A DNA stretch of 64,000 nt from Gammaproteobacteria bacterium (GTDB lineage Bacteria; Pseudomonadota; Gammaproteobacteria; Xanthomonadales; SZUA-36), in NCBI GenBank assembly GCA_021772935.1, contig JAJFLA010000032.1, forward strand, positions 62,001-126,000. Direction: 5' to 3'. A program made the position numbers and the translations under genes. Shown here one piece after another: positions 31,728-59,865 of the stretch (position 1 is the first letter of the stretch; every line of letters starts with the position of its first letter). The notes beneath the pieces were generated by a model. It did no database searches. It saw nothing but the letters and a program-made list of their open reading frames with translations, and had not been told where the DNA came from.

Positions 31728-32411
31728 CTAATTCCTATTGTTCCGATAAAGACCTTCTCCAAATCTAGGTTCGGTCCCACCAAAACTGGACTCACATAAA
31801 CCAGTGTCGCCCACGACTTTGATGTTGTTGAAGGAAACAATCTCAGTAAAGTTAGAATCAAGAACTGAGACCGAAGCGGTGTCACAACCTAGTGTGATTT
31901 CCATTTCAAGGCCAGTATATGATGGCAATGTGATAGCAATGCTTTCATTCCCAGTACCGCCACCGGTAACTTCTATACCAGTACCGCCGCCAGTGACTTG
32001 TACGCCAGTGCCGCCGCCAGTGACTTGTAAACCAGTACCGCCGCCAGTGACTTGTACGCCAGTGCCGCCACCAGTAACTTCTGTGAACGGATCTGGACTG
32101 GCTAATCTAATTTCGGTTAATGATAGGTTTGTCGCTGAGCCATTCAGGGCTGATACTCCGGAGAATATGCTGCCATCAATAATCCAAGATACTAATAACG
32201 TATCATTTTGTACTACAAGATTGAGAGAGCCTTCAGGTTGTAGTTGGTTCGCGTTTACCTGAGAAGCAAATGCAATTGACACCATTGATAATGCCAATAG
32301 ACTTTTCCGGATTCCCGTACCTGATTTTTCGATGCCGGTCCCAGATTTTTCAATTCCTGTACCTGACTTTTCAATTCCAGTTCCATCTTTTTCAATCATC
32401 CAACGAGTCAT
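31728..32411 (-). CDS. Exported protein with GTG-type repeats on both sides of its signal peptide
   Basis: 227 residues, family not recognised. Residues 9-36 hold four copies of a 7-residue unit, (K)SGTGIE, before a hydrophobic stretch (37-50) and a signal-peptidase-like NANQ site near 54. So the n-region is an unusually long repetitive one. Residues about 110-154 hold five copies of a 9-residue unit VTGGGTGVQ with V/L/I and Q/E variation. Between and after are beta-rich, surface-like segments; two cysteines near the end (GCDTAS, GLCESS) could form a disulfide. Its ATG is 2 bp from the DUF6502 stop codon, and the ribosome-binding site AGGAG lies inside that gene, so the two are coupled. Confidence 0.75.
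   Translation of the reverse strand: MTRWMIEKDGTGIEKSGTGIEKSGTGIEKSGTGIRKSLLALSMVSIAFASQVNANQLQPEGSLNLVVQNDTLLVSWIIDGSIFSGVSALNGSATNLSLTEIRLASPDPFTEVTGGGTGVQVTGGGTGLQVTGGGTGVQVTGGGTGIEVTGGGTGNESIAITLPSYTGLEMEITLGCDTASVSVLDSNFTEIVSFNNIKVVGDTGLCESSFGGTEPRFGEGLYRNNRN
31950..32083. repeat. 27-bp tandem repeats, five units
   Basis: On the plus strand units such as CCGCCGCCAGTGACTTGTAC repeat with a 27-bp period and a few synonymous and conservative changes. They encode the VTGGGTG-x-x repeats of the exported protein. The end units (CCACCGGTAACTTCT) differ most, as expected if the middle units arose by recent duplication. Confidence 0.85.
32304..32390. repeat. 21-bp tandem repeats, four units
   Basis: Units of the type TTTTTCAATTCCTGTACCTGA repeat with a 21-bp period and encode SGTGIEK ahead of the signal peptide of the same protein. 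Third-position differences between units show some age. Confidence 0.8.
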
Positions 32412-33271: not shown

Positions 33272-33494
33272 TATATAGTCTTCCCCAAAACTCCTTGGCA
33301 CTACTCAACGACTTCCTTTTCAAGACAAGTCAAACATTAGTATCCGCATCATTGCAAACACCCCTGTAACTTAAAGCCCACCCTTTAGGATAGTATTTTA
33401 TTCAATGACTTGCACTGCCTAATTAAACTGTTTCCTATAATGTTCATACTTCTTACAGCAAGGATTCTGTATATATATAACTAAAATCCTTGCA

Positions 33495-33735
33495 TCAAAA
33501 ATTAAAACAGGTACCCACATTCCTTGTGGGTACCGGCTGTAGAGCGAAAAGGACGAACTTTTTCTTAATTTGAGCGCTCCGTGTTCATTAATTCCGAACC
33601 TTTCCGTTCGTACACTAATATCCGTGTACTTGTAGGAGATGTGAGTCCTTACGCATCCCGTCTTCACTGGCCGACCCATCGGGGTCAACAATTCGTTTCA
33701 CTTACCAGGCCCCAAAAACATGTTGTGTGCTACAA
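33495..33735 (-). ncRNA. Candidate CsrA-titrating small RNA (RsmY/RsmZ/CsrB type), minus strand; 5' end approximate
   Basis: Read on the minus strand, seven GGA motifs lie between 33658 and 33521, about three times the chance number. Three sit in hairpin loops: stem GTACAC/GTGTAC (33629-33624 with 33615-33610), stem CGAAC/GTTCG (33610-33606 with 33599-33595), and the terminal stem GGTACCCACA/TGTGGGTACC (33534-33525 with 33519-33510). The terminal stem has loop AGGAA and is followed by TGTTTTAATTTTT, so it is an intrinsic terminator. Its ACAAGGAATGT is close to the CsrA consensus ACARGGAUGU. No promoter is clear; I place the 5' end near 33735 from a weak TATTCT. It precedes the DUF6502 operon on the same strand, so a leader with attenuator is the main alternative. 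Confidence 0.62.
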
Positions 33736-33801
33736 GAATATTGTCTCTTGAAGCACGGCAATCTGAATCCCCACGGCTAAGATAACAAATATAGCCATGG
33801 G

Positions 33802-33813
33802 TGTCTATAGACA
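33802..33813. promoter_or_regulatory. Perfect 12-bp palindrome between the two divergent small RNAs
   Basis: TGTCTATAGACA is a perfect palindrome centred 91 bp upstream of the predicted start of the plus-strand RNA. TGTATTTAGCC occurs twice nearby (33818-33828 and 33866-33876). GacA/UvrY activates Rsm/Csr RNAs through TGTAAG-N6-CTTACA-like dyads; this site shares only the outer TGT...ACA, so its regulator is uncertain. Confidence 0.4.
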
Positions 33814-33862
33814 TATCTGTATTTAGCCTAAAAAGAATTTAGACGAAATTGTAAATAGACAC

Positions 33863-33891
33863 TTGTGTATTTAGCCAAAGTTGGCTATAGT
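33863..33891 (+). promoter_or_regulatory. Predicted sigma-70 promoter of the plus-strand small RNA
   Basis: TTGTGT (33863-33868) and TATAGT (33886-33891) are separated by exactly 17 bp. The -10 box matches the consensus in five of six positions and the -35 box is weak, as expected for an activated promoter. The predicted start is the A at about 33898. Confidence 0.55.
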
Positions 33892-33897
33892 GTATTC

Positions 33898-34045
33898 ATC
33901 AAGGGGCGAAGTGGGCAAGGAAAACACTATTTCGTTAGCAGAAGGATCTGCTCAGCTTTGAGGTGCAAGGAAGCGATTGGCGGGTGGCGACACGTCCGCA
34001 TGGCGGCACGGGGTATCACGGATGATACCTCGGTCGCTTTTTTTT
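33898..34045 (+). ncRNA. Candidate CsrA-titrating small RNA (RsmY/RsmZ type), plus strand
   Basis: About 148 nt from a predicted promoter to an 8-T run (34038-34045). GGA motifs occur at 33919, 33944, 33969 and 34020. The second is the loop of a perfect stem AGCAGA-AGGA-TCTGCT (33937-33952). The fourth is in the loop of GGTATC-ACGGAT-GATACC (34012-34029). That stem and a CCGC/GCGG stem are enclosed by GCGAC (33987-33991) and GTCGC (34033-34037), directly before the T-run, so the end is an intrinsic terminator. This is the layout of RsmY/RsmZ RNAs, which sequester CsrA. A 62-residue frame across it has no ribosome-binding site or family. Confidence 0.68.
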
Positions 34046-34251
34046 GCCTGTAACTAAAAGATGTCAGAATCAATTCAGGATAGGGTCTTATCCATCGAGT
34101 CAGTAGTTCGGTTCACCGAGGTTCGATAAGGCCAATGATTTGTAGCTAGTATTGTCAATACAAATTGTGAGCGGGATTTCCAATGTATATCAGTACTCAG
34201 ACATCCCATTCATATGGGATCGATCAGAGCTTACATAAAAGGATAGCGCAT

Positions 34252-59667: not shown

Positions 59668-59865
59668 ATGCTAATACTTACAAGACGAGTTGGAGAAAAA
59701 CTCGTGATTGGAGAAAATGTGACCGTCACCGTACTCGGTGTCAAAGGTAACCAGATACGCATTGGTATCGATGCGCCACCTGAAGTACAGGTGCATCGGG
59801 AAGAGATTTTTCAGCGGATTCTGAAAGAGCGGGACGAGTTGGAAAGTAGTCACGGTAACAAGTAA
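59668..59865 (+). CDS. csrA: Carbon storage regulator CsrA
   Basis: Dimeric RNA-binding protein that represses or stabilises mRNAs at GGA motifs. It has 65 residues: [51 protein letters not shown]. Arginine 44 and the L4 region needed for RNA binding are present. It is in the standard alaS-csrA-tRNA-Ser order. Two candidate CsrA-titrating RNAs lie 25 kb away at 33.5-34.0 kb. Confidence 0.98.

Follow-up and report, generated by a model that had tools for sequence, protein, structure and literature searches.

The locus described here occupies one intergenic region in a 64,000-nucleotide stretch of DNA (the window) from a gammaproteobacterium of the order Xanthomonadales. It is flanked by a gene with a DUF6502 domain (Pfam) and by a gene that we take, from its translation, to be asnS. 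Two putative RNAs point away from each other out of a shared control region made of phased 16-bp boxes, and a csrA gene lies farther along the same window. The features are as follows, with plus and minus denoting the strand.

33496-33772, minus: predicted leftward RNA, about 275 nt, eight GGA sites and three GGA hairpins, both ends putative
33510-33534, minus: leftward terminator hairpin GGTACCCACAAGGAATGTGGGTACC, whose loop contains GGA, followed by TGTTTTAATTTTT (terminator scan)
33595-33610, minus: leftward hairpin CGAAC-GGAAAG-GTTCG
33610-33629, minus: leftward hairpin GTACAC-GGATATTA-GTGTAC
33779-33784, minus: leftward -10 element TATCTT, preceded by TG, with a 17-bp spacer (promoter scan)
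33802-33807, minus: leftward -35 element TAGACA (promoter scan)
33792-33887, no strand assigned: six 16-bp units TAGMCA-N10 in phase, starting at 33792, 33808, 33824, 33840, 33856 and 33872
33863-33868, plus: rightward -35 element TTGTGT, read in the window
33886-33891, plus: rightward -10 element TATAGT, with a 17-bp spacer
33898-34045, plus: predicted rightward RNA, 148 nt, starting near 33898, with four GGA sites (33919, 33944, 33969 and 34020)
33899-33961, plus: closing stem TCAAGG/CTTTGA, enclosing hairpins 1 and 2
33907-33934, plus: hairpin 1, AAGGA in the loop (folding and 20-row pairing analysis)
33937-33952, plus: hairpin 2, AGCAGA-AGGA-TCTGCT (folding and 20-row pairing analysis)
33965-33974, plus: hairpin 3, GC-AAGGAA-GC (20-row pairing analysis)
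33980-33999, plus: nearly invariant GGA-free hairpin GCGGGTGGCGACACGTCCGC (alignments of relatives)
34009-34045, plus: terminator hairpin with ACGGAT in the loop (stem CGGGGTATCACGGATGATACCTCG at 34009-34032), then a T-run at 34038-34045 (terminator scan)
59668-59865, plus: csrA, 65 amino acids, intact and close to CsrA/RsmA proteins of known structure, the expected ligand of the RNAs

The rightward unit begins with promoter-like elements that match the consensus at 8 of 12 positions. This promoter is absent from the list that the promoter scan returned for the window, and the rightward terminator is listed by its scan. The evidence for this promoter is comparative: its two elements are kept, as TTGYG and TAWANT, in all 16 aligned upstream regions. 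A preliminary description of this DNA had proposed the 17-bp-spaced promoter, about 148 nt of non-coding sequence, a perfect stem with an AGGA tetraloop and a terminator-proximal stem with ACGGAT in the loop followed by eight T, and each of these is borne out at the positions given above. Its inventory was incomplete: it named two of the GGA sites and overlooked those at 33919 and 33969, and its account of the region left out both the GGA-free hairpin and the box array. Folding, which it had suggested as a check, places GGA in loops; two versions of the unit have z-scores of -3.6 and -4.0, with none of 200 shuffled sequences equally stable. A 62-amino-acid frame with a GTG start traverses the unit in the window (33865-34053). 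No reading frame is common to the RNA across 20 relatives, in which the longest frames start at variable places and many run beyond its end. By sequence, the predicted rightward RNA looks non-coding and has its own promoter-like elements and an intrinsic terminator.

DNA similarity identifies the rightward unit in 16 of 41 genomes, counting its own. A scan of a species-genome collection for the core pattern returned 20 stretches, 16 of which were judged to be the true locus and four to be chance matches; these four (L022, L029, L034 and L036) lie in seemingly coding DNA of unrelated bacteria and were rejected. A covariance model (R1), built from 11 rows, finds the rightward RNA in 20 of the 39 genomes of the host's family, as a single copy in each and in 11 of 14 genera. 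If only family genomes with a completeness of 90% or more and a contamination of 5% or less are counted, the proportion is 18 of 22. An order-wide draw of 299 genomes, searched with stricter filters at which weak matches are lost, gave 20 positives, all in the host's family, and none among the 260 genomes of other families. An equally strict search of 369 genomes across the class recovered the RNA of the window's own genome and one weak match in another genome (G579, 28.6 bits), which was set aside as chance; it falls in DNA that looks protein-coding and has no core.

The stems of the rightward RNA vary in a compensatory manner. In an initial alignment (A1), the closing stem was shifted in several rows; alignments of 11 rows (A3) and 20 rows (A6) were used instead. 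Across the 20 aligned RNAs, in an alignment that was fitted to the model and is biased towards structure by construction, 95.7% of cells pair and 28 of 40 pairs are doubly changed, a result matched by none of 500 shuffles, and slid controls reach at most 43.9% pairing. A plain, unfitted alignment of 11 rows gives 94.7% paired cells and 12 doubly changed pairs of 40. The closing stem shows 98.3% paired cells, with double changes in four of its six pairs. While the stems vary, the GGA in the loops is invariant or nearly so, with exceptions of the type found in genome G004, for instance in hairpin 2 of loci L004 and L006. The most conserved part of the RNA is the GGA-free hairpin (GCGGGTGGCGASACGTCCGC): five of its seven pairs never change, each of the other two deviates in a single row, and the six-base loop varies only by an exchange of C and G. 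Relatives carry RNAs of 142-185 nt with four to nine GGA sites across the 20 rows, nine being found in one relative.

Hairpins that present GGA in the loop are also more frequent than in shuffled sequences. With stems of at least five pairs, 35 are found over the 20 rightward loci vs 5.3 in shuffled sequences; taken singly, 10 of the 20 loci reach p <=0.05 and four have no such hairpin. Within the window, only 5 of 1700 half-overlapping stretches of equal size from the remaining DNA attain the rightward count of at least two hairpins with stems of at least five pairs. When stems of at least four pairs are counted in the window's own genome alone, the excess is modest, the observed count being reached by 34 of 300 shuffles for the rightward RNA and by 24 of 300 for the leftward one. 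Conservation and covariation together remove a chance origin, and the rightward unit is, on this comparative footing, a member of a conserved RNA family.

The leftward RNA is less well conserved as DNA, with matches in 4 of 40 other genomes over about 48-140 of 311 bases. All four matches sit just upstream of the rightward RNA and point away from it, and a GGA-hairpin-rich transcript is predicted upstream of the array in most relatives. Over 23 loci, 82 leftward GGA hairpins with stems of at least five pairs are counted vs 13.4 in shuffles, and 18 of the 23 loci reach p <=0.05. The counted stretches were fixed at 520 bases, except for two shorter ones (62 bases in L037 and 429 in L031), so some of these hairpins lie beyond the terminator. 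At least four GGA hairpins occur in 12 of the 21 full leftward stretches (mean 3.9) vs none of 588 flank stretches of 520 bases (mean 0.47). The window's own leftward stretch has four, of which three fall within the RNA and one beyond it, and this value is reached by 1 of 478 stretches. GGA is retained in the loop of the terminator hairpin, whose stem is 99% paired with double changes in five of nine pairs in 11 loci chosen, as recognisable, from 22.

The two RNAs do not always occur together. By our reading, two of 19 loci lack a recognisable leftward RNA: one (G005) has no counted hairpin, and the other (G006) has three weak ones (p 0.01) and no terminator hairpin. Conversely, the rightward RNA was not found in three genomes of genus g8 that keep the array and the leftward transcript. 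Taken together, these cases indicate that the pair is not obligatory.

Two further elements lie between the leftward RNA and its neighbouring gene. On the minus strand, the interval from the leftward terminator to the DUF6502 gene contains a block like GTGCAAGTCATTGAATAAAATACTATCCTA at 33386-33415, which recurs in the loci of many relatives and is probably the promoter of that gene. Downstream of the leftward RNA in L025, L027, L028 and L032, a hairpin of the TTTTCAGGAGACTGAAAA type with GGAG in its loop directly precedes an ATG. This ATG is probably the DUF6502 start, and the hairpin may form a ribosome site under CsrA control.

The control region between the two RNAs consists of six units in the window, the third and fourth of which have one mismatch, and the last unit ends in TGGCTA against the rightward -10 element. 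Relatives carry four to seven units per locus with at most one mismatch (23 loci, counted in the 16-bp phase only). Three exact boxes in a row (an exact triple) are present in 18 of 39 family genomes, and a reversed control pattern occurs in none. All 50 listed places with the triple are this locus or, in genus g8, its counterpart. The window's own genome has no exact triple. In the order as a whole, the triple is present in 20 of 398 genomes, two of them outside the host's family; these two matches (L085 and L086) are simple repeats by their letters and were rejected. The reversed control itself matches three of the 398 genomes (G095, G184 and G195), so that matches outside the family represent background. 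The array overlaps the rightward -35 element and spacer as well as the leftward -35 element and may therefore be a repressor array. Because the array is specific to this locus and spans both promoters, we infer that one cooperative regulator controls both RNAs.

Most known CsrA antagonists come from Pseudomonas, enterics, Vibrio and Legionella. Features of this class that can be read from sequence are present here: several GGA motifs in loops, covarying stems, promoter-like elements and a terminator, and csrA in the genome. The csrA gene is found in 31 of the 39 family genomes. Seven of the 20 RNA-bearing genomes have csrA and the RNA locus on one contig, separated by 25-31 kb. A search of the window against Rfam returned nothing relevant either at the gathering score or at E <=5, two microRNA matches and one NrrF match being judged chance. 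Among 17 related loci searched at E <=0.5, only two matches appeared, both to RF00166 (PrrB_RsmZ) and both overlapping the rightward RNA, at 23.7 and 22.5 bits (E 0.21 and 0.46) vs a gathering score of 44; the other 15 loci and the window gave none. These scores are far below the gathering score, and the rightward RNA is therefore not filed as RsmZ. It should nonetheless work like the RsmZ class. With RsmZ/PrrB and the CsrB/RsmY class it shares GGA-loop hairpins, a GGA-bearing terminator hairpin and the presence of csrA in the genome. It differs from them in scoring about half the RF00166 threshold, in belonging to a divergent pair with one control region, and in having phased 16-bp boxes in place of the GacA box and an additional, nearly invariant GGA-free hairpin.

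These observations are best accounted for by a pair of divergent RNAs that sequester CsrA and answer to a single common regulator, and we regard this as highly probable, with transcription, CsrA binding and shared regulation all being predictions from sequence. In this model, the rightward and leftward RNAs would present several GGA-loop hairpins to CsrA dimers and, when made, would free the mRNA targets of CsrA. One cooperative DNA-binding protein on the phased array would set the levels of both RNAs together. A divergent pair of CsrA-antagonist-type RNAs was also the central proposal of the preliminary description, and it gains support from the GGA enrichment on both sides, the covariation of the stems, the csrA gene in the window and the sub-threshold RsmZ matches.

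The regulator that occupies the array would differ if the boxes were a changed site of the GacA-like regulator itself, with the ordinary Gac route as input. In 31 of 39 genomes, a GacA/UvrY-like protein stands out clearly as the best match, at about 211-261 bits (226 vs 125 for the next match in the window's own genome, where the gene lies at 3471-4112 of L096 on contig C41). In the two genomes read, the gene beside it is presumably rne, judging from the translation. The DNA-binding region is conserved in the 29 aligned rows from these 31 genomes, which favours this assignment. Several observations argue against this assignment. The curated cut-off of the GacA/UvrY family, 280 bits, is reached in none of the 39 genomes. 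GacA boxes have the consensus TGTAAG-N6-CTTACA, and none is present at 33780-33900 with up to three mismatches; window-wide, 18 such matches occur vs 23.3 in shuffles. The sCache_4 sensor domain is found in none of the 39 genomes in a search that covers sensors bearing this domain and in which E. coli, as a control, is positive; a sensor of another kind may be present. The phosphate-accepting aspartate is kept in 19 of the 29 aligned sequences, and it is replaced by serine or asparagine in all nine aligned genomes of the host's own genus and by alanine in G017. Alignments to VraR and NarL place the serine at the position of their aspartate. The tenth genome of the genus (G001) has a weaker best match only and is not in this alignment. 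On this evidence, the ordinary Gac input looks weakened in the host's genus; a non-phosphorylated GacA could still act. On balance, direct control of the array by the GacA-like protein through the ordinary route is a possibility that we hold only tentatively.

A second alternative concerns the leftward transcript, which could be chiefly a small-protein mRNA whose 3' region is regulated by CsrA, its remnant in the host's genus being a decaying relic and not a working sponge. Nine genomes from six other genera encode, always at this locus, a small protein of 57-107 amino acids at the start of the leftward transcript; it begins MLYVLHH or MYWVIHY. By our reading, its ATG lies 6-7 nt past the presumed leftward -10 element (TANNNT) in all nine relatives, and for this reason the message looks leaderless. 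Over the first 32 codons, third codon positions are the most variable in 35 of 36 pairwise comparisons, with one tie. A profile search of 398 order genomes with the nine-sequence alignment found the same nine genomes and no other. Pfam searches with three of the proteins gave nothing above the curated cut-offs, one having sub-threshold matches to DUF3303 (E 0.099) and FmdA_AmdA (E 0.12). The frame is gone in the host's genus, and the loss of leftward hairpins or terminator in G005 and G006, two members of that genus, would fit decay there. Against a predominantly messenger role, the GGA hairpins and the GGA-bearing terminator, with its compensatory changes, persist in most loci of the genera that lack the protein, including most genomes of the host's own. 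We therefore consider a message with a regulatory tail an improbable description of the leftward RNA as a whole.

A sequence motif recurs between this small protein and another part of the region. The open reading frame that follows the DUF6502 gene (31728-32411, minus strand) starts with EKSGTGI repeats in tandem; similar motifs (EKDGTGI, EKGGTGI and ERSGTGI) occur in several of the leftward small proteins of other genera.

The near-invariance of the 20-nt GGA-free hairpin raises a third alternative, in which the rightward RNA is mainly a base-pairing sRNA with this hairpin as its working part and GGA loops that let CsrA tune its stability or activity. The hairpin is indeed the most conserved stretch of the RNA, but the GGA loops are likewise conserved or nearly so and their number rises as high as nine, and the leftward partner has only the GGA design in common with the rightward RNA. 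Outside the locus, the window contains no complement to the core of 10 bases or more and three of 9 bases, below the chance expectation. A mainly base-pairing function is accordingly quite unlikely. Chance hairpins in AT-rich spacer DNA, which the modest GGA-hairpin excess of the single genome might suggest, are a negligible explanation, given that the RNA is conserved and covaries across 11 genera and that the array is specific to this locus.

The reading of the locus as two divergent CsrA-sequestering RNAs can be set beside the antagonists already described. In the same order, Xanthomonas campestris has RsmU, an RsmA/CsrA-binding RNA with GGA motifs that arises by processing of a comEA-like mRNA within its 3'-UTR; the sections of the report drawn on here place RsmU in Xanthomonas only and describe no homologue of the other known antagonist families there (PMC7694677). 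The RNAs of the present locus resemble RsmU, as far as those sections portray it, in their GGA motifs, in their predicted binding of CsrA/RsmA and in belonging to the Xanthomonadales, and they differ in that each has its own promoter-like elements and the two sit between the DUF6502 gene and asnS, not in a comEA 3'-UTR. In Pseudomonas brassicacearum, rsmX-1 and rsmX-2 are described, in the portion of the paper used, as duplicated RsmA/CsrA antagonists under GacS/GacA (PMC7911923). These two are related by duplication, whereas the locus here holds two unlike RNAs that point apart.

The nearest published parallel is in Pseudomonas putida, where two RsmA-binding RNAs on opposite strands of one intergenic region (PP_1865/PP_1866) were predicted by machine learning only (PMC5568370). 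By the coordinates in the table of that paper, this pair also diverges; the section containing the table mentions neither a shared box array nor conservation across genera. Within the sources covered by our literature search, in part by excerpts, no published divergent antagonist pair closer than this one was found. The preliminary description had remarked that such an arrangement is not standard, and it is indeed unusual, with this one predicted look-alike. The locus has no match to plasmids.

A more far-reaching view of the paired sponge RNAs combines the state of the GacA-like protein with the small protein of the sister genera. The classical input would have decayed, the GacA-like regulator of the host's genus no longer being phosphorylated at its usual site; another protein, bound to the array, which as an exact triple has a single place per genome in 18 relatives, would switch both predicted CsrA sponges, and the locus would represent a passage between mRNA and sponge RNA. 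We put this forward as a speculative extension that is more doubtful than the paired-RNA model itself. On this view, the transcript of one sponge also carries, in sister genera, the small-protein gene that looks leaderless.

The locus adds a conserved, predicted pair of CsrA antagonists with one control region, apparently in another family of the order to which Xanthomonas belongs. The DNA of the array alone could serve to fish out the upstream regulator. With a small-protein gene on the leftward transcript in some genera and predicted GGA hairpins in most, the locus also lends itself to studying how mRNAs and sponge RNAs may interconvert.
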